Source: Sphaerolaimus hirsutus (Eukaryota; Nematoda; Chromadorea; Monhysterida; Sphaerolaimidae). Taken from it: a stretch of DNA of 64,000 bases. The translations under genes were made by a program, and so were the position numbers. Positions within the stretch are counted from its first letter, which is position 1. Each line of letters begins with the position of its first letter. Below are positions 1 through 13,700 of this stretch, piece by piece. The stretch lies in assembly GCA_964036195.1 (NCBI GenBank), contig OZ038450.1, positions 13,828,701-13,892,700 of the forward strand, given 5' to 3'. The notes beneath the pieces are model-generated. The model saw nothing but the letters and a program-made list of their open reading frames with translations. It did no database searches and had not been told where the DNA came from.

Positions 1-371
1 AAAAAGTGACTGGAAAATGCGACTTTTAGAACGTCAGCGTAAAAAATTTTGCGCGCAAGCGCGCATTCTTCACCAGACATAAGGTATTATCATCGGATTT
101 GCTCCATGTGGCCACAAATCGTTATAAATACACTCGATGTTGTGTTTTTTGCTGTTTTGTATGTATATTTACATACATATACAGCATTCCATGGCGCTGA
201 CGCCAACGCCAATTGCGCCATGGCGTGGCGCCTACTAATGGCGCCAGCGCCATGGCGCCATTCTGCATCTATGTAGCTGAAATTTTAGAGGGGGGGGGGC
301 TGAGCCCCCCCCCTTGCCGGCCTCCGTAAACAAGCAGCCCCCCCCGCTCAAAAATCCTGGATACGTCCCTG
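1..371. mobile_element. hAT-like non-autonomous element, CAGGG family copy A (cut by window edge)
   Basis: The stretch matches the complete copy at 29338-29771 almost base for base: the GCGCGCAAGCGCGC motif, the TACATACATATAC segment, the GGCGCCATGGCGCC core, G and C runs, and the terminal CCTGGATACGTCCCTG. The left end lies outside the window, so its target duplication cannot be tested. No coding capacity is visible. The superfamily is inferred from the CAGGG ends and the 8-bp duplication of the complete copy. Confidence 0.8.
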
Positions 372-573
372 TACATTACACAAAACACAATTTTCAACGG
401 AAATATCAGTAACAAAATTGTTTAATAAATTGAATTGGTATTGATTGAACCTAATCTGGTTATGTCCTATTGTTTAAAATACGCACAGAAACTTTCAAAT
501 CTTTAACATCTTTTCAAATGTCTGTTTTGGTTTCACATTTACGTAGGTTTTCTGTTATTAAAAAATAATCTAC

Positions 574-781
574 CCACGACAAATTCAATTTCAGTTCGAC
601 GCGGGTGTCTCGCAAAATTTGGATCAAGTAGACAAAGAGGTCATTTGTGCGAAACGCCAGGGACAGGAGCGATATCTCGGGGCGCAGCGAGTTTCTCTGG
701 TCCGTCGATTCTACTGAGGTTTTGCGTTTCACATGTACTTTTTTGTGGATAAACTCAAATGCTGAGCTGGAGTGTGTTTGA
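574..781 (-). CDS. possible C2H2 zinc-finger exon
   Basis: On the minus strand an open frame reads through a perfect C-x2-C-x12-H-x3-H pattern (CAHC followed by HKKVH) and continues for about 55 codons to a GTAGAT donor at 573. The acceptor TGTAG at 782-783 lies in the end of the neighbouring inverted-repeat element, and the two cysteines fall inside that repeat, so the finger may be partly fortuitous. A plus-strand reading after a TTTCAG at about 600 is also open for 40 codons. I cannot decide between them. Confidence 0.3.
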
Positions 782-1198
782 CTACAGTGCGCGCAGAAAT
801 TCTGGTGCGTATTGGCACCGATCCATGTGCCACTGTTACTCCGCGCACTCGCGCCAGCCTACATCATTAAAATGCACGTGAATTTGGCTCGGCCACGCGC
901 GTCGTTTTCCCTATACAAACTTGTGATTTTTACGAACGTTTCAAGGCCCACCATGCGCTTGAAAGTAGGAATTGTGGGTCGAGCGTACGCACAGAGGGCT
1001 AAAATTTTGTGCGTTCTCTGTCAGATGTAAGAAAATGTAGAAATTTAATTTGTCTTATTTGAGCCCACACACAAAACAAGGCGAGCCTGACGGAACGCTC
1101 GTGATTTTTGGGATTAGTGCGCGCGGGCATTTACACCAAAGTGGGCGGAGCTTACGCGGACCGCCACATGCAAAGCTAAATATCTGTGCGCACTGTAG
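782..1198. mobile_element. inverted-repeat element, CTACAGTGCGCGCA family
   Basis: The element starts with CTACAGTGCGCGCAGA and ends with the inverse TCTGTGCGCACTGTAG. It shares its ends and its interior (GGCGAGCCTGACGGAA, GTGGGCGGAG) with the copy at 12809-13234. Non-coding. Confidence 0.7.
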
Positions 1199-1220
1199 GT
1201 AGAAGCGGTTAATGCCACCT

Positions 1221-1351
1221 GGTGCCAGTCCCATACCCTGTAAAGTGTCAAGTTGTGTCAAATGTCGGTAATAGTTCAGTAGTAATCTCTTTTGGTTTTG
1301 ATTGACAATTTTACGTGGCATTTGACACTTTACAGGGCTCGGGATCGCCCC
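1221..1351. mobile_element. MITE, GTGCCAGTCCC family
   Basis: Ends GGTGCCAGTCCCATACCCTG and CAGGGCTCGGGATCGCCCC frame short arrays of TGTCAAATG and GTAAAGTG motifs. It is the same family as 13866-14107, 26951-27110, 30140-30330, 40268-40497 and 63765-63945. Confidence 0.7.
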
Positions 1352-1551
1352 TAACCGCAATTTACAAATTTAGTGCTACTTAGTGGCTTGGCGAGGCAAA
1401 TGAATTTGACAGGTGAGGGGCAGCGGATCCCAATAGTGCTCAAAACTCGATTTTTGAAACTCTAGTTCGAGTTTCAACCCTAAGTCTAATTTTATGTGTA
1501 ATTGCCTGATAATATCGAGTTCATCGCATCTTCACTCACCTGTTTTCACAG

Positions 1552-1794
1552 AACCACGATGACACCACAAGAGCCAACGCCAGGCCGCCACCCGAATCGC
1601 AATTGTACAAAAATTCGTCCACTACCGGCAGCCAGATTGAAATGCCGCATTCGTCTGTCTCCGCGCCAAGTGTGGACCACCGCGGCCGCAAATCACGCTG
1701 CAAAGTGTCCTGTCCGAAATGTGGGCAACTGTTCAGTGTCAAGGATATAATTTCACATAAGAGAAACTGTCGTGGAGAGGGACCGCAACTGGAG
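1552..1794 (+). CDS. zinc-finger gene exon (C2HC finger)
   Basis: The exon lies between TTTTCACAG and a GTTAAT donor, 81 codons in phase 0. The first 50 residues are Ser/Thr/Pro-rich. They are followed by a basic linker and one finger, CPKC-x11-H-x3-C, with an ISHKRNC end. The open frame stops soon after the donor. Confidence 0.65.
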
Positions 1795-4700
1795 GTTAAT
1801 TTGCACTGGTTAGGATCCAAAGTGTCAGGGGTTTTGTGGGCGCGGTTTGGGGAACCCCTAAATCCGTCAGCTATTGATCTATCCCGGAGGCCGCTCAGCT
1901 ATCTATCTAGGTATCTATCCCGGAAGCAATTTTTTTGGCTGCCGTCCCCTGACCCTCCTTGTTAAATTGGAAAGCATGCAGTTTCACATAGAATATTGTT
2001 GTTTTGGCTTTGCAGCAAATAACGTAATGTATTGTTTCTTTCTGTATGTACCAAATTGATTTACTTTTAAAATTAAAAATAAACCACTTTCATGCTATGC
2101 TATTGCGATGTCCTACAGTGCCGCCCCCCCCCCCTGGGTACGTCCTTAGCAGAGGCCATTTTTGGGCCCGGAAAATCCTGACAGTTATTGCGATACAGAG
2201 CCCATTCGTAGGGTTCGAACGATATGACTTTTCGATATCGATATTCGATATTCGATATTTTTTTCTGAAACTCGATATTCGATATCGATACGATATGGAA
2301 CCTCGATATCGATATTCGATATTCGATATTGAAAAATGGTCGATATTCGATATTTTCGATATTCGATATTGCGATTTGCCTTTGGTATAGCAAGGCATAT
2401 TTCAAGTGGCATATTGTATTTTCATGTGGTTGCACACATGGTTAATCATCTCTTTACTGAAATGTGAATGGTACAAGTGATTTTAACAAGCTTTACATCA
2501 CTCAAAAGTAGAAAATGGCAGAGGATCATGATGAATCAAAGTGTATCAGACATAGGGATGGCCAGCGCTTTTTTTAAGCGCTTTTTTTAAAAAAAACGCC
2601 GCTTTTTTTTAAAAAAAAGCGCAAGGGTCCCAGCGCTTTTTTTAAAAAAAAGCGCTGGCAAAAAATTTTGTACCTATGCACCAGGTATTTTGCAATTTTT
2701 TCGCGCGCGAGCGCGCAATTCCGCATGCAAATTGCCATTGGTGGTTGTTTTCATTGGTATTGTGGCATTTTTAGTGCCATTGCTTCTAGGTATTCCTGCA
2801 TGGTATCATGTAATAATAAGTTGTGGTATGTCAGTCAAGTATATAATATCCAGCCAATGTGCTTCAACACACTTTTCTACAGTGTGAAACATCAGTGTCA
2901 TCGTCATGTATTAGCCTTCTCTTATAGCCATATTTAAGAACTATCCCATGCTCAACTTCACTAGAAGTCACGAAACATTCACAAACGGTGATATATATAA
3001 CAAGTCAACATAAAATTGGATTTTTTCAGCAGAAATCAGGACTTTTAATGCTATCGCATGATTACACAGCCATTCTATGACTATATATCATCACAAGTAC
3101 TACCACTTGTCTGATATACCTGTATATATTGGCTCAGAACCATATTTGGAAGCTTTTTAGGTAATGTCTTGACATTTTTTGAAAAAAAGCGAAAAAAGCG
3201 CGTTTTCTTTATAAAAAAAAGCACTTTTTTTAAAAAAAAGCGGGGTCGTTAAAAAAAGCGCTTTTTTTCCATCCCTAATCAGACATAACAATTGGTAGAT
3301 ATTACAGTTTATACTTATAACCTAATTGCTTAAGGGCATGTTGCAAAAAATAGCATATCAGCATTTTCTAGCTTCAATTTTAGCACTCCAACAAAAATGA
3401 CATTATAAATACTGTACTTTTACTCATCAAATACAATACTATGAGCAAATCAGAACAATCATAAATATCTCAAAATGAAAATGAAAACTTAATTGAAGGA
3501 CACAATACAGGTTCAATATATCGAAAAATGGTCGATATTCAATATCGATATTCGATATTTTTTCAAAATTTTCGATATCGATATTCGATATGAAAAATGG
3601 TCGATATCCGATATTCGATACAATATATCGTTTGAACCCTACCCATTCGGACCAATTACTATACTGAAACCATTTCCATCGAAAGACCGTTCCCGTTGAC
3701 GCGGCAGCCTCCAGTCTCGTCGGCGTGCCGGCGCATTTGGCCGGTTGCCAGAACAGCGCGCCGTGAACGCCTCAGGTGGCGCCCGCGGCTCTCGCTGAGC
3801 AACGCATCCGGTGCGAGCACTGCTTTTTGCTGGTAGAGCCGTCGCAAATGCCGCTGCACATGCAGATGCTGCACGTGGAGGATCAGGTTCGGGACATGGG
3901 TGGATTGCCCTGGAGGGATTGCCCAGCTATCATCTATCCCAGACGCTGCTCAGCTATTTGTCTATTCCGACGCAAAAATTTGGCTCTTGTCACCCCCAAA
4001 TCGGCCAAATATGGAGCGATTTTTAATTGGCATAAAATGCGTTATCAATTTACTGTGTAAATGGGGTTAGATTAGGGTTGGCCGATGTTTTTTTTAAACG
4101 TTTTTTATTAAAAAAACGTTTTTTTTATGTAAAAAACATGACATCCGAAATGTTTTTGTTTTTTTAAAACATCGACCGAAATTTTTAGTACTAAGCACTA
4201 GGTATTTTGCAAAATTTTTGCACGCAAGCACGCAATTTCACACACAAATTGACATTGGTGGTTGTTTTAATTGGTTTTGTGGCATTTTTAGTATCAAAGT
4301 ATCAATTTCTATGTGCTACCATGGGTTAATAAGCCGTCATATGTTGCTGTAGTATATAGTATTGATGTAATGTGCTTCCATGTACCTCCACAGTGTGTAA
4401 CTTCACTCCCAAAGTAACGACCTCATTTTATAACCTTGTTTGATCACCATTCCGTGCCAAACTTTACCTGAAGTCACGAACATTCAGCTATAAGGCGATA
4501 TACAAACGATATGTCGACGAAAAATGGATATTTTTGACACAAATCACCACTTATAATGCTATCCCATGGCTCCACAGACATTATATGATCATATATAACA
4601 TCACAGAGTATTGCCACTGTCTGATTTACCTATATATGTTGACACAAGGTCATATCTGGGAGCTTTAAAAAAAAACGTTTTTTATTAAAAAAAACAACGT

Positions 4701-7700
4701 TTTTTATAAAAAACATCGAGTTAAAAAAACGTTTTTTTTCCAACCCTAGGTTAGATTAGCTTTTATTTTGGCAATTTTTCCCAATATTTACTGATTCCCC
4801 TTCCCATTTTCGATTCCCATAGCCCTAAAAAGCTTATGAACCTAGCCCATAAAAACCCAAACCTTGTTTCGCGTGGATTCCACCTACATACGCTCCAGCT
4901 TTCGATCCCAGGCGCTACTCCAAGGGTTTGGTAGGAGCCTGTGCCTCTGTGCACTCTGTGCTACTGTGCCTCTGACACAAATCACCACTTATAATGCTAC
5001 CCCATGGCTCCACAGCCATTATATGATCATATATAACATCACAGAGTATTGCCACTGTCTGATATACCTATATATATTGACCCAGGGCCATATCTGGGAG
5101 CTTTTAAAAAAACATCGAGTTAAAAAAACGTTGTTTTTTTCAACCCTAGGTTTGGGAGGGGGGTTGTGGTGGTTCAATATATAAGCTTTTATAATACAAT
5201 CGGTCCAGACATCACATAGGGATTAGGGATAATCTCATGAAACGCAATGCAGTTACAAGTAGCACTGCAAACCAGAAAAAACTGGTTTTCAAACACAGCA
5301 GTGCAACTGAACGCCTTAAAAGACGCCGTTAGTGCGTACGTAAGATCATTCTATTTTTTCTGCATTTATTTCTTCGATGGCGCGACGCAGCGACAACAAG
5401 AATCGACGCCGCAGCCGCTCCCGTTCCAGTTCCAGTGGTTCATCTTCCGGGAGCAGTTCTACTTCTGGAAGTAGTTCGAGCAGCTCCAGTTCCAGCTCAG
5501 ACCAGCACAAAGACAACAAGCTGTCCAAGGTTCCAGTGCATGACGCACTCAACCTGTCAACTCAGAATGACAATTTGGTTACTTCTGTTGTCACAGAAGA
5601 CCAAAATGTGTTTGATAACAAGTTAGATTTTTCAATCTTTCTTGTTATCTTTGTCAGCTGTGCTGTTGCTGCTTGAACTTTTTGTCACTTTTCAGTGACG
5701 ACATCGTGCTCAACGACGACGACGGCGACAACGACCTCGCCGCCGACAAAGACGCCGCCGACGGCTCCGGCCTCGCCGACGCCAGCGCCGCCGCGGTGCC
5801 GGCGGTTCCGGCGACTCCGCAAGAGGCACGTGCGCTCGCCAAATTCCGAGGTGGTGGCATCATCACTGAGGTTGTTCAGGGCTGGGAGCGGGATTTTTCG
5901 GGCGGCGCTGTTATGTCAAAGCAACTGAAGGAAAATTTTCGCACAAAATTTCCTGCGTTGCACAGCACTTTGCTAGAGTTGGTCTTGTTTATGAAATGGT
6001 TGACTTTGTCTATCTTTTGACCCACTTTTCATTCGATCAAATTTTTCCCTCAGTTCGGTTCCGCAGAGGGATGAGGAATTTGCGGAAGGGGGCAAATTCC
6101 AGACGCCTAAATCCAAGGTTTCCATTGATGCTTCCTACCTCAAAACTTTGGAGGAAACATTATTTGAAGTCGATAAATCCTTGGTAGAACTGTCGCGCAT
6201 TCCGTACCTTCTCGGCGATGTGTACAGTGCGCAGCAGCAAGTCCCTGTGGACAAGTTGCCCCCTGGACACAAGCAAAGTTCTCTCAAGGATATGTTTGAG
6301 GGAATGGCTTGGGGCGTAGCCAAAATTTCCGAGGTGAAATTTTGACTTTTCGTTTTTGAATTTTTCATTTTTTGAAATTTTCAAAATTTTGCGTTTTTTC
6401 AGACACGTTTGGGCGTCACCTCGGCGAGGCGACAGCACTGTCTGCTTCCGCACGCGGGTCGCATTGCCAAGAGGAAGCACAAGGCTATTGTGCGCGATAT
6501 TTCCACTATTGGCATCCGCTTGAGGTCCAAACGCGAGACGGGTCAGTCCTTGGTTTTAACTTTTTAGTTTTTAACCATTTTTGGACTTTGTGTGATGAAT
6601 TCCTGATATTCCGCTCCACTTTTTAGACTCGAAATTCCCTGATCGACTTTCGGCGCCGCCGCTCCTCTTTGGCCACAAATTGCTGAAAGAGATGCGTCAG
6701 AAGCTGAAATACCGCAAGAAGAAGGGCAAAGTGTTGGGTGACATCTTTGAAGGTTGGTCACTCAACATTTTTTGCAACTTCTTTTCTTTTTCGGATTTTT
6801 TTTCCGGATTTTTCCAGACTTTTGCGGACTTTTGAAGGTGCCGTTTCACGTGGATAACTGTTCGATTTGTTTTCAAATCTTTTGAACAAATTTCATCTGT
6901 TTTCAGATGACGAACCGTCCGCCAGCACTCAGCGTCAGCGCCAGTCGACTTCGGCTAAGTCGACGCGCTCGTTGCTGACCAACGCGCTTTTGATCAACGG
7001 CCGCAGACAGTCGTTCAAGTCCGGCTACAACGATTTCAAAAGGTTCAAGTGAGTTCTTTTTGAATGCGTTGCTGTTTGAAGTTTTTGGTTATCTTTTGAG
7101 TTGCTCAAAGTCAACTTTTCGATTATCAGATTGCCGATTTCTAAACCTAGAGTTGTAGATCTTTCATCACAACTTGACAGTTGTGATGATTTTGATTTTT
7201 CTCAAATGACTCAGTCAGCATATGCTTTGGAAGGTTTCAATTCAGTCACTCCTCCAAATGATCAAGTTGCTGGTAGAACTAAATATTTCTACATTAACTG
7301 GACACTGGTCACTTCAGATCCTTGGGTCCTGAATATGGTGAAAGGAATTGATTTAGGTTTTTTCACAAAACCATTTCAAAAATCTCCAATTTTACCTTTG
7401 AAGTTTTCTGAGGATATCAATTCGGTCATTGATGAAAAGATTCAGGAACTTTTGGACAAAGGAGCAGTAGATTTGATGTCTTTTTCAGAATCAAATTTTG
7501 TGACTAGACTTTTTGTGGTGTTCCAAAAAAATGGAAAAATCAGGCCAATTATTGATTTATCTCCTTTGAATGTGTTTGTGAAAGCTCCTCACTTCAAAAT
7601 GGAAACTTTGGCCCACTTAAAGGATATTTTAAGGCCTGCAGATTTCATGGTGAAAATTGATTTGTCTGATGCCTACTTTACTCTACCAGTAAAAGACATC

Positions 7701-10700
7701 CGCAAAAAATTTCTGCTATTTATTTGGAGAGATAAGCTTTATCAGTTCAATTGCATGCCTTTTGGACTTTCCTCAGCTCCTTTCATTTTCACCAAAGTTT
7801 TGGCTCCAGTTGTGGCAATGTTTAGATCTATCAACATCAGGTGCTCGATCTATTTGGATGACATTGGCATTTTTGATGAAAATTCAGATGTTCTTTCTCA
7901 GAAGGCTGAATTTGTCATTTACACTTTGCTTAACTTGGGTTTTTTGGTCAATAGATCCAAATGCCAGTTGATTCCTTCCCATTGCATGGAATATTTGGGT
8001 GTAAATGTTGACTCAATTTTAATGAAATTCCTCATGCCAGATGCAAAAATTTCAGCTATCAGTGAAAGAGCTTTAGAATTGTCTCATGCTGATACTATTT
8101 CTTTACAGAAATTAGCTTCTTTTTTGGGACAAATCAACTTCATTACTAGCTGTATTCAGCCAGGGGCTGCTTTTTGTAGAGAGCTTCAATTTGCTCTTAT
8201 TGACGGTTTGCGTTCTGCTGGCACTTACTCCCATCAGATAGCTTTACCTGTTTTAGCTAGAGAAGAACTGAAAATTTGGATTAAAGATTTTTCTTCTTGG
8301 GATGGAAAAGATATTGTTCCTTCTCCACCTGAAGTTATTATTGAAACTGACGCTAGCCGTCGCGGCTGGGGTGCAGTTTGCAATGGAAAGATTATTTGTG
8401 GTTTTTGGAGCTCTTCAGAAATTTCTTTACATATAAATGTTTTGGAATTGAAAGCTGTCTTTTTTGCTCTGAAAATTTTTTGGAAAATTATTCGTGGCAA
8501 AACAATTCTCATAAAATGCGATAACAGTACCACTGTCTCTTATTTGAAACGGAAAGATGGTACTCGTTTGAGAGAAATGGCTAGGATGGTTTCTAAAATG
8601 GTTCAGTTTTGTTTGGAAATGGATATTGTGCTTTACGCACAGCATGTTCCAGGGAAGTTGAACATCACAGCTGATGGTGCTTCTCGACAAGCTTTTGAAC
8701 CATCTGATTGGAAATTAGATAGCCATATTTTCGATTTGTTGGCTTATATTTTTGGTTTGCCAGAAATTGATTTATTTGCAGCTGCTCACAACAAGCAGCT
8801 AGACAAATTTTGCTCATGGAACGCTCAACCGGATGCTTTTTCCGTTGACGCTTTTTCGCTCAATTGGAAGGTTTTTACATTGAGTTATGCTTTTCCACCC
8901 ATCTGTTTGATCGCCAGGGTGATTCAAAAAGTTCGATCGGAAAGGGCTACTATGCTTTTAATAGCCCCAATGTGGAACAGAAAATGCTGGTTCCCCGATT
9001 TGTTAGATCTGTCTGTGGCACCCCCTGTCATTTTGCCTTACTCATCTAGATGGCTCGAAGGCAGACATTTAATTTCTAGACCCGATGGTTACTCTCAAAT
9101 TTTTGATTTTATTTAAAAAATTCCAAATTTTTTAAAAATTTTCAGGGTTGCCACATCCCTTGACCCGCCACACCCTCAAATTGACGGCTTGGCTTATTTC
9201 CGGGGATCATGCATTGCGAAAGGTTTTTCTTCATCAGCTGCCTCATTGGCTTGCCAATCCCTGGCAGCCAATACGAGGCAGCAGTATAATTCTGTCTGGT
9301 CAAGCTGGGTGGACTGGAGCGAACAGAACAATGTGCATTCCTTTTGCCCGGTTCCATGTCAGGTTGCAAATTTTTTGACTTTTCTTTTTCATCAAGGAAA
9401 GTCATATTCAACCGTGACTTCAGCTCGATCTGCTCTTTCGACTTTATTGAGCCCTACTTTAGGATCTCAAATAGCTGATCATGTAATAATCAAAAGAGTT
9501 TTGGCTGGTATGTATAAACACACACCCCCTCAACCGAAATATTCAGAAATTTGGGATCCTTCTGATGTCATTTCTTTTATTGCTTCTAATTGGGGAGATA
9601 ATTCTAAGCTTTCGCTTATAGAACTCTCTCAGAAGTCCGTTGCGCTTTTAGCTCTCACCAGACCCTCTCGGGCTGCTGAATTAGCTTTCATTAACATCAA
9701 TTCAATTCGTTTGTCTGATAACAAGCTTATTTACAACTTGTTGAAATTAACTAAAACTCAAAAGCATGGCCCTCTCTCATCTTTTGAGGTTGATGTTTTT
9801 CACGACAATTTGGCTATTTGCCCAGTTTCTACTATTCGTAGTTATTTGGAAAGGACTAAAGATTTGAGAAATAATTCAGATAATCTTCTGTTTATTTCTT
9901 CTAAAAAACCTTTTGCTTCAGTTAAGTCAGATACAATTAGAAGATGGTTGTTATCTGTTCTGAAATTAGCGGGTATTCAACATTTTTCCGCTCATAGTTT
10001 TAGAGCTGCTTCAGCTTCTAAAGCTTTATCTAGAGGTGTCCCTTTACAACAAATTTTGAATGCGGGACAGTGGAGTTTGAAATCTTCAGCTTTTACGAGA
10101 CATTATAATCGTTCTGAGAATATCACCTCGCTTTCAAGTGCCATTTTGACTAAGTGAGCTTATAATTCTCCCTATGTGATGTCTGGACCGATTGTATTAT
10201 AAATGATATTTATATGAATAAATTTTTTATGAAATATAAATAAATTTATGGACAATCGTCCAGACATCACCGACCCACCCTTTAAATTCCCACCCTAATC
10301 TTTATTTCTTTCTCACTTTAGTCGCGGCGCTGGCACATCCGGTCGTGGCGGAGCGAGGAATAATTCTGGCCAGAACTTTGACACCAGGAATCAGGATCGC
10401 CAACCTTTCAAAGGCAATCCTAGGGGTGGTAAAAGGTTGCAATCCAAGAAATAGTCGATTTCGGATTGTTTTGGATATCTCGTTTTTCGTTTTATCCGTT
10501 TTATCGTTTGATTTTGAGATTTGATTTTTTGTGTGGACTTTTTCAAAAAATCAGGGGGGGGTATGCTTTCTAGACGGTGCTTCTAGACTGTTTTCGCCCT
10601 TATAGCCTCTGTATTCTTTGGAAGTGTCCCCACACATATACATTTGTCACATACAAGATACAAGTCACTTTTTTCTTGTTTTTCATTTTTGAATAAATGC

Positions 10701-13700
10701 CGGAGATCTCCTTTTTTCATTTCGTGAGCCTCCTTATTTGGCTCAATTTAATGTATGTTGGACACGTTTTTGTCCCCGATTTTGGACACGTTGTTTGTCC
10801 GTCCATCTGTTCGTTGGAAAATTTCAAATAAATTTTGAAATATTTGATTTGCCTTGAAGAAATAAATACAGAAAGTAAGGAATGATCTTACGTACGCACT
10901 AACGGCGTCTTTTAAGGCGTTCAGTTGCACTGCTGTGTTCGAAAACCAGTTTTTTCTGGTTTGCAGTGCTACTTGTAACTGCATTGCGTTTCATGAGATT
11001 ATCCCTAATCCCTATGTGATGTCTGGACGATTGTCCATAAATTTATTTATATTTCATAAAAATTTATTCATATAAATATCATTTTCGGGGCAATGAAGGA
11101 AGTAGAAAAGGGAGAAAAATCGCTAAAAGTAGGTGTAAAATGGGTATACAAGAGCATATAGTATACTAAATATAGGCAAATAAACCAGAAAACAGAAACA
11201 TGATTTTGGAAGTGAAAATCTATAAAAAGATATGAAAAATAGCGATTTTGAGCGAAAATTGGGGTATAGAGAAAAGGTACAAGATGTTTTCGCCCTCGCC
11301 GGGACTCGAACCCGGGACCTTTCACTGAGCGTGTGAATGCTCTAACCAACTGAGCTACGAGGAGGCCACATTTTGCACCGCTCTAACTATAGTTTCGCAA
11401 AAATCGCTCCAGATAAGTAGATAGCTGGGCGATTTGGGGGGGGGGGGTTAGGGGGTAGTAGCCCAAAATTTTGCCTCCAGGTTAGGTAGATTGCTGGGCG
11501 GTTTGGGGGGTAAACCCCGCCCCCATTCGAGACCCCTGATCGGGAGCAATATTTGGAAATTTTGCCCCAATTTTAGCTAAAAGTCGCTGATTTAAAATTT
11601 TTAGCTAAAAGTCGCTGACCTTTTTTTACTATTTTCACCTTCAAAATAACTATCGTGCTTCCTAGTATAGCTTATTTGCACTAATAAACCCGCTAGGGGC
11701 ATTTCGAAGAAACACGGTATTTTCCAGTTATTTTTAACGATTTTCCCAATTTTGTGTCAACTACACCTTCAAACGCCTATATATCGAACCCCCGATAACT
11801 GCCCCCCTTAAACCCCCCACGCTACCCACCGAGAACATTTTTCAGCTATGTATCCCACGGAGGAGCGATTTACTATCCATCTGAACTTCTGCAGGGGTTC
11901 AACTCTCAAAGACCCCTGCCACAGATATATTTGAGGCGTCTAATTCTAAAAGTCGACGGTCCACAAAATGCGGTTTTGAGTAAATCGCATTTTAAGTTTC
12001 AGACCCAATTCCAGGCCCGTGGTGCGTGTCCAATTTGACTCTCTCATGCTTTCCATTAAGTTCCATATGTTGACAATAAGGTGTCAAATTTTCAGCCCCT
12101 GCTCTCAACGTATAGGTATATGAAAAATGGGGTGTCCATAAAATTCCATACAGTCAGAGCAAAACTGTTTTGGGGAGGGAAATGGACTTGTCGCCTTCTT
12201 GCACGCGAGAACATTTTTGTTCTTGCCGATGATGACGCTGCCTTATCGCATCGGTTTCCACACTGGACTTATCACATTTCTTGCGTTTTTCCATAAAAAA
12301 GGATGCGTAGGCTGGACTTGTCGACTTTTAGCCCAAAACTAAGTGGACTTGTCGAATTCTTGCCCATTTTTTTGCATTTTTCCCAAAACATGTCAAAGTT
12401 GGCACTATCGTATATAGGTATGCGAGGTCAAAAAATTCATGGAAAATGATGAAAAATGTGCGGAAGTAGCCCCAGATGACGTTTCCAGGCCTAACTCGAA
12501 ATTTTCATATTTTGGACTTGTCGACTTTTAGAATTGGACGCCTCATTTAGATTGCTGGCGAGTTGCAGGGGAGCCTATTGACGGACCCCCGGCCTTCCAT
12601 TTCTTAATTCATCAATTGATATTGATCCTGCTCGCAGACGACGGTCGAGTGCCCAATGTGCAAAAGGTCGTTCAAAAATCAGACTGGATTGAAAATCCAC
12701 AGGGCTGTCAAATCTGCTTGCAAAGATCCTCATCGGGGCGGACCAGTTCAGGTGAGACATTTGGTGTCCGGGAAAATCTTGTGACTTGCTTTTTCCCAAA
12801 AACAACAACTACAGTGCGCGCAGAAATTCCTGTGCGTATTGGCACCGACCCAAGTGCCACTGTTACTCCGCGCACTCGCGCCAGCCTACATAAACTGACG
12901 CGAATTTTGGCCCGGCCGCGCACCCCGTTTTCCCCATACAAATTTGTGATTTCTACGAACTTTTAGAGGCCCAGAGGCTTGAAGAGGCTTTTTGAGGCTT
13001 GAAAATGGGATTTGTGGGTCGAGAGTACGCACAGGGGGCTAAAATTATGTGCGTTCTCTGTCAAATGTGAAAATGTAGAAATTTTACTGTCATTATTGAG
13101 CGCACACACAAAAAAGGCGAGCCTGACGGAAAATCCGCGATTTTCGAGAGACGTCCCGCGCGGGCATTTACGCGAAAGTGGGCGGAGTCTATTTAGAGTG
13201 GCGATGCGCATCAAAATATGTGCGCGCACTGTAGCTTGTTTCTTCAAGTACAAATTCAAGGTATTGTGATGTCATCAAATATTTTTGCATTTTAGTCAGT
13301 TTTATGTAATATCACCAGAATCAGGGGCGTAGCCAGAAGTTTTGAGCGGGGGGGGGGCGGATTGTATACGGAACCCGGCGAACGGGGGGGGGCGGCTCCC
13401 CCTCCCTGAAATTTGACTTTGTTGTAAAGGAATGACGCCAGCGCCATTCGTAGGCGCCACACCATGGAGCCATTGGCGTCGGAATATACTGCTGTAAATG
13501 TATGTATTTTACATACATATACAGCGACGTAGATTTTGGGTGATATTTGTCCCAAACTAAATATATCAATGAAATATAGTACACGGCGCTGTGCACGAAA
13601 TTTCTCCGAACTACCATCGAAATGGTTTTACGGATCTGCATATGTTTTTCATCCGGCCCGGGAAGGGGCTTCCCTGGCTACGTCCTTGGCCAGAACTATG

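Follow-up and report, generated by a model that had tools for sequence, protein, structure and literature searches.

By what means DIRS elements express their overlapping pol and recombinase frames, and how retroelements come to retain introns, are to our knowledge open questions. Both are raised by an apparently intact element of 5,897 bp (5188-11084, forward strand) in a stretch of 64,000 nucleotides (nt) from the nematode Sphaerolaimus hirsutus (contig OZ038450.1, positions 13,828,701 to 13,892,700). This whole stretch is hereafter the window, and coordinates are relative to its first base; features lie on the forward strand unless stated. By the membership tests run, the element is a DIRS1-like retrotransposon. 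Its gag resembles a gene of seven exons, and its pol (reverse transcriptase, RT; RNase H, RH; and a weakly methyltransferase-like part, MT) and tyrosine recombinase (YR) would be alternatively used exons within the last gag intron. Judged from its sequence, the element is probably expressed by alternative splicing of a shared exon.

A proposed shared gag donor and its downstream acceptors

The first six gag exons (5377-5621, 5696-5977, 6054-6333, 6403-6541, 6627-6752 and 6907-7048) join into 1,214 nt, or 404 codons, free of stops and ending in phase 2. Fragments of exons 2-6 were found again in related copies. Exon 6 ends at the donor CAA/GTGAGT (7049-7054, phase 2; a slash marks the splice junction). 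A sequence-only reading of the window had proposed that this donor serves three acceptors, at 7129, 9145 and 10321. All are in place in phase 2, and each continues in frame. Acceptor 7129 (...GATTATCAG/A) reads on K-LPISKP... into RT, acceptor 9145 (...AATTTTCAG/G) reads on K-VATSLDPP... into YR, and acceptor 10321 (...TCTCACTTTAG/T) reads on N-RGAGTSGRGG...KRLQSKK to the stop of a terminal gag exon. These sites exceed chance, as they recur in related copies.

Under the proposed plan a single pre-mRNA from the left terminus would yield all isoforms. Gag would be produced by splicing exon 6 to the terminal exon at 10322. Gag-YR would be produced by splicing exon 6 to 9146 in phase 2 and 10153 to 10322, which would add the same basic tail. 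For Gag-RT-RH-MT, exon 6 would be spliced to 7130 and 9087 to 9146 in phase 1, with a stop at 9376, and the YR exon, in its other frame, would supply the last pol residues. The donor joined to acceptor 9145 would decide which enzyme the shared exon encodes.

A search of the same genome (348 Mb, 762 contigs) with the RT returned at least 68 matches. The 20 best-scoring loci besides the window (L009-L028) were compared, along with three (L029-L031) from a group at 42-46% identity; the search also gave L001-L008, but as these repeat the window and, in shorter cuts, the places of L009-L015, they add nothing to the count. The window and L009-L028 form a same-kind set of 21 copies with RT identities of 51-97%, and L029-L031 are distant (42-45%). 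Clustering at 80% RT identity gave 16 families, of which 13 belong with the window copy and 3 are distant. The closest relative compared, L009, shares 97% RT identity with the window copy, and L018 is degenerate. The phase-2 gag donor, the YR acceptor, the YR donor and the terminal acceptor keep recurring among the families, even at RT identities as low as about 51%. No relatives were found in viral contigs and phage records.

The expectation that donor, acceptors and phase would be conserved among copies was largely borne out. The homologous gag donor is in phase 2 in 16/20 copies (by script, with contexts chosen by eye). When donors were ranked blind to phase in 15 copies (six others lack the search motif), the phase-2 gag donor came first in 12, and the homologous site came second in L016, L020 and L022. 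A phase-2 acceptor opening into RT was present in 11 of the 12 copies evaluated, L018 being the failure (sites chosen by eye; the gag-RT sites of L011, L024, L025 and L028 were also read by eye, and the region is missing from L012). The intron from exon 6 to RT measures 55-82 nt in the 11 verified copies. However, in five copies (L016, L017, L019, L021 and L027) no stop separates gag from RT, and one of these, L021, has a phase-2 RT acceptor as well. Splicing is therefore unnecessary there, and the three-acceptor arrangement is not universal among the copies. What stands of the proposed choice between acceptors is the part concerning Gag and Gag-YR, which is the best reading of a conserved phase-2 gag donor, conserved YR and terminal acceptors and the lack of a shared YR start codon (see below). 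The RT of L011 is split by an insertion of ~3.9 kb (locus ~590-4500) rich in ATGTATGTGCCC-like repeats.

The exon-6 donor is confirmed but need not be the only hub, as the donor that closes exon 1 (5622) is likewise in phase 2. Exon 1 could act as a short leader spliced directly to RT, YR or the gag body, in which case the enzymes would be made without the whole of Gag. Its donor is in phase 2 in the window and, by eye, in L013, L016, L017 and L019 (those resolved among nine copies viewed). However, the exon-6 donor of the window is the fuller match (GTGAGT vs GTTAGA), and a Gag-RT fusion is the simplest route given an exon 6-RT intron so short in 11 copies and none needed in five. We consider such a leader unlikely, although it and the exon-6 hub are compatible options. 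Exon 1 (5377-5621) is Ser/Arg-rich, likewise in L010, L013, L016, L017, L019 and L027 (by eye).

The predicted recombinase exon and its two reading frames

The exon for RT-RNase H and the weakly MT-like part (7130-9087) opens at acceptor 7129 in phase 2 and closes at donor 9088 in phase 1. It is followed by a pol intron of 58 nt (9088-9145, GATG/GT...TTTTCAG/G), found at the same place and phase in 20/21 copies with lengths of 54-73 nt and a GATG or GACG/GT donor (that of L022, 58 nt, was positioned by hand). L021 lacks a valid intron, its AG being off by one base. Splicing out the pol intron would lead from RT into an overlapping frame whose common tail stops at codon 71-94 in 18/19 copies, and at codon 39 in L022. 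In the window this C-terminal tail of pol spans 9148-9378, with its stop TGA at 9376-9378, and it was found in 20/20 fetched copies L009-L028 (partly in L022 and L026). The distant L029-L031 have no pol intron, and their RT reads directly into the homologous tail; the tail therefore belongs to pol. Because the pol intron is conserved and the intronless copies run into the same tail, the TAA at 9114-9116 is predicted to be intronic, and an RT-RNase H open reading frame (ORF) ending there incomplete. The sequence-only reading, which let RT-RNase H end at 9116, is corrected here, since pol is predicted to be spliced onward via 9088/9145. Nor does splicing replace overlapping ORFs, as had been suggested: pol and YR overlap, and the exon at 9146-10153 carries both in different frames.

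This predicted cassette exon is 1,008 nt long. Frame A, entered in phase 2, encodes YR, and frame B, entered in phase 1, encodes the pol tail. It ends at the donor TAA/GTGAGC (10154-10159, phase 2), which is overlapped by a stop TGA (10155-10157). Relatives have AA/GTCTGT, AA/GTCAGT, AA/GTTGGT, GA/GTAAGC and others at this end, and the best-ranked donor near it is in phase 2 in 18/20 copies (ranking blind to phase; degenerate L018 left out). Over 19 copies (L018 and L021 excluded, donors taken at the homologous place), the distance from acceptor to donor is divisible by 3 in 16, and 14 have a frame A free of stops, which occur in L009, L022, L023, L025 and L026. In the spliced reading, the YR of the window has its first in-frame Met no earlier than residue 123. 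Moreover, the first Met of frame A is scattered from codon 16 to codon 232 across the 19 copies, so there is no common YR start codon.

A different origin for YR would be translation of pol or unspliced RNA from an internal or a non-AUG start, as may happen with overlapping ORFs in other DIRS elements; splicing would then matter for gag and the pol tail alone. DIRS elements are known to have overlapping pol and YR (PMC3266345, text as available), and possible start codons do occur: a Met lies near the YR start in L029, L030 and L031 have a common Met inside the overlap, and in L014, L017 and L027 frame A has a Met at codon 16-19. However, no Met is common to the 19 copies, and the phase-2 acceptor and phase-2 donor that flank YR would serve no YR function. 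A pyrimidine-rich acceptor in phase 2 for YR also lies at this place inside the pol frame of L030 and L031 (locus position 5154, FPPFCLLG codons), though neither has a pol intron; this is a weak point, as L031 has further candidate acceptors, most of them also in phase 2. Taken together, internal initiation appears decidedly improbable as the source of YR. A leader trans-spliced to 9145 was set aside because no start codon is to be found close to that acceptor in the YR of the window.

Alternatively, RT could be fused to YR by read-through of the TAA at 9114-9116, by retention of the pol intron or by a cryptic phase-2 donor within RT. RT and YR of the window are indeed in one frame with this single TAA between them, the unspliced RT-intron-YR frame is open in L016 (1,070 amino acids, aa), L017 (1,080 aa) and L028 (1,014 aa), and RT contains some well-scoring GT sites in phase 2. 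However, over 20 copies the length of the pol intron modulo 3 is 1 in seven, 0 in nine and 2 in four. The required frame relation, a length of 1 modulo 3, is thus found in only 7/20 copies, and it differs even between close relatives (58 nt in the window vs 66 nt in L009; 60 nt in L024 vs 61 nt in L028). Read-through from RT to YR is therefore not kept, and the varying length led us to reject both TAA read-through and intron retention as a conserved route to YR. As the cryptic RT donors are not at one place common to all 20 copies, a fusion of RT with YR has very little probability left.

The predicted terminal gag exon beyond the internal complementary region

The last gag exon (10322-10454) encodes a tail of 43 codons, Gly/Arg-rich and basic, with its stop TAG at 10452-10454. 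It lies past the internal complementary region (ICR, 10169-10270; circular junction AAA at 10201-10203), which is itself placed downstream of the YR donor at 10154 and upstream of acceptor 10321. In each copy the acceptor richest in pyrimidines among those up to 110 nt from the ICR end was chosen blind to frame. In 19/20 copies with a placed ICR it lies 42-69 nt past the ICR, and phase 2 gives a tail of 32-44 aa, usually rich in Gly, Gln, Arg and Lys (L012 is the exception, the frame of L023 looks broken and L018 has no ICR to place; the ICR end was estimated for L012, L015 and L023). Openness of the frame alone proves nothing here, because among 12 family representatives the phase-1 readings are longer on average (47.8 vs 39.5 aa). 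However, in the same representatives the mutual similarity of the phase-2 tails is above that of shuffled tails (mean score 38.7 vs 30.3), whereas the other phases hardly exceed theirs (22.1 vs 19.6 and 11.7 vs 10.9). Phase 2 is thus singled out by composition and mutual similarity.

A stricter terminal-exon signal was found in 17/20 copies, in 0/3 distant copies and in 6/11,488 overlapping background windows, its criteria having been fixed after the copies were viewed and the background being the ends of the same loci, with a range of 40-70 nt against 25-75 nt in the copies. This bears on whether the element is simply decayed and its splice-like sites due to chance. Decay is visible in some relatives, in the frame-A stops of the five copies named above and in the degenerate L018. 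However, every part of the window copy is open, and together with the rarity of the terminal signal in the background this makes chance sites exceedingly improbable. Silent and replacement changes in the terminal exon number 3 and 1 between the window and L009, and 2 and 1 between L024 and L028, too few to weigh. In L029-L031 the phase-2 terminal tails, read by eye, are 72, 65 and 63 aa long and begin 42, 35 and 34 nt past the ICR, and the phase-1 readings are longer still (109, 94 and 94 codons). Among these three, the phase-2 gag donor was read by eye for L030 and L031 only. L030 has a phase-1 donor GG/GTCAGTT near the YR end, and the terminal region of the distant families is perhaps a second dual-frame exon.

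The position of the ICR would also separate messenger from template. Because it sits in the intron before the terminal exon, spliced mRNAs would lose it, and unspliced RNA alone would keep the ICR and all introns and could serve as the replication template. RNAs spliced before the terminal exon could not serve in the DIRS-1 circle model, as outlined in the available text of PMC5633606, since their ICR would be removed. An ICR-bearing unspliced template would in turn explain the persistence of the introns. We lean, with more reserve than for alternative splicing as such, towards a lineage of YR-retrotransposons in which the ORFs have become one multi-exon gene, a dual-frame cassette exon is chosen by the upstream donor, the ICR is intronic, and splicing parts messenger from genome and so preserves the introns.

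Several observations weigh against expression by alternative splicing. In the pol mRNA the stop codon would lie before another junction, an arrangement that often triggers decay. The families share ancestry and all come from one genome, and hence are not independent tests. The blind ranking of the gag donor was imperfect, exon 1 offers an alternative phase-2 donor, and L014, L017 and L027 have the possible YR start codons mentioned above. The top-ranked donor at the YR end is the homologous site in 15/20 copies, the exceptions being L019, L024, L025, L026 and L028; in L019 it is located past the YR stop. The YR donors of L019 (GTTCGA) and L016 (GTCAGG) are weak. In 8/20 copies a phase-2 GT within the RT exon scores at least as well as the pol donor. 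With a matrix trained on pol acceptors the terminal acceptor does not rank first in most copies, and the pyrimidine count is needed to pick it out. Between the window and L009 the terminal exon differs at 4/132 sites and the preceding 100 nt of intron at 0/100, so the exon is no better conserved than that part of the intron.

Also unfavourable is that the genome yielded no recognisable spliced retrocopy in which gag is joined to YR or to the terminal exon. A gag-YR probe (joint at residue 28/29) gave 49 matches. One spans residues 8-87, but it is the unspliced place of L009 and contains two stops; five matches cover gag only, and the remaining YR matches begin at residue 20 or later. For this reason the few residues that they cover before the joint are not evidence of splicing. 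None of the 61 matches to a gag probe crosses the joint of exon 6 and the terminal exon by more than a few residues.

Ends, surroundings and known systems

The class of the element is given by its domains and ends. Profile searches found RT (RVT_1, E 3.2e-21) and RNase H (RT_RNaseH, E 2e-05) domains as well as a tyrosine recombinase domain (Phage_integrase, E 1.1e-09), the N-terminal part of which weakly matches Cre (E 0.014). The methyltransferase-like match in pol is weak (Dam, E 0.073) and below the cut-off. The left terminus (5188-5375) and the right terminus with its right extension (10856-11084) hold inverted terminal repeats (ITRs), whose arms of 173 nt each (5203-5375 and 10856-11028) are 97% complementary, and both ends of the element are TTT. 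The two ICR halves, 10169-10203 and 10201-10270, pair with opposite ends: 35 nt pair with 5188-5222 at 100%, and 50 nt at 98% and 27 nt at 100% pair inside 11016-11084. Their overlap, AAA, is complementary to the TTT ends. Long ITR pairs and the ICR pair are both present in 16/21 copies. The split direct repeats of PAT and Ngaro elements were not found, the terminal repeats being inverted and accompanied by an ICR. The sole direct repeat involving both a terminus and the ICR is a 20-nt exact pair (10169-10188 and 11009-11028), which is expected from the ITR and ICR. Candidate polyadenylation signals AATAAA, by sequence match, start at 10692, 10827 and 10861 (range 10692-10866).

The GC-rich parts are the gag exons (49-62% GC), the terminal exon (52%) and the stretch read in two frames, 9146-9378 (50%). 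RT (37%) and the remaining YR (36%) are AT-rich, near the least AT-rich of the measured introns (16-35% GC). A tRNA-Ser(GCT) gene (11290-11365, reverse strand; Rfam tRNA match) lies ~205 bp downstream of the element. Upstream, at 4090-5130, AAAAAACGTTTTTT-like blocks flank a unit present twice (~4525-4670 and ~4960-5105, by eye).

The element shares with the DIRS1-like elements described in PMC3266345 its RT-RNase H, YR, ITRs, ICRs overlapping by a 3-bp circular junction and the overlap of pol and YR, with the MT-like match weak here. That plan comprises three ORFs and places the ICRs at the 3' end, and the main text contains neither "intron" nor "splic-". In contrast, the window element has seven predicted gag exons, the last of them past the ICR, and its pol and YR resemble exons belonging to a single gene. 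A survey of nematode DIRS and PAT elements (PMC4157794) reports Dirs1-like elements in Enoplus and Romanomermis, with Hypsibius as outgroup. Its main text does not contain "intron", and of two occurrences of "splic" the one viewed concerns transposable elements generally. PAT elements have split direct repeats, unlike the inverted repeats of the window element. The available text of PMC5890265, PMC12477816 and PMC6902594 holds nothing on spliced DIRS elements. While the DIRS1-like class is known, the arrangement and its expression plan were not found described in the literature searched, which most subscription journals and Repbase lie outside.

The plan also touches on host genes: TMPO and ZNF451 captured a DIRS1-like gag, which according to the available text of PMC4495291 probably brought its own splice acceptor and polyadenylation signal. 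If true, the plan would explain in concrete terms and to the exact junction, for one lineage, how pol and YR are expressed and how introns are maintained.

Spliced retrotransposon RNA has been described for Drosophila copia, BARE1, Ogre and CRR (PMC3735527) and for the shGAG of EVD (PMC8892269). Copia, BARE1 and EVD likewise splice to make a Gag mRNA, their unspliced RNA serving pol or replication. However, all five are long terminal repeat (LTR) elements, and no symmetric cassette or exon read in two frames is described for them in the available text of these papers. Penelope-like elements can also carry and retain spliceosomal introns, but they have another class of enzyme, and the available text of PMC3846280 describes no exon choice between proteins. 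If the plan is true, the choice of a cassette exon and a dual-frame exon selected by splicing would join the known expression strategies of retroelements.

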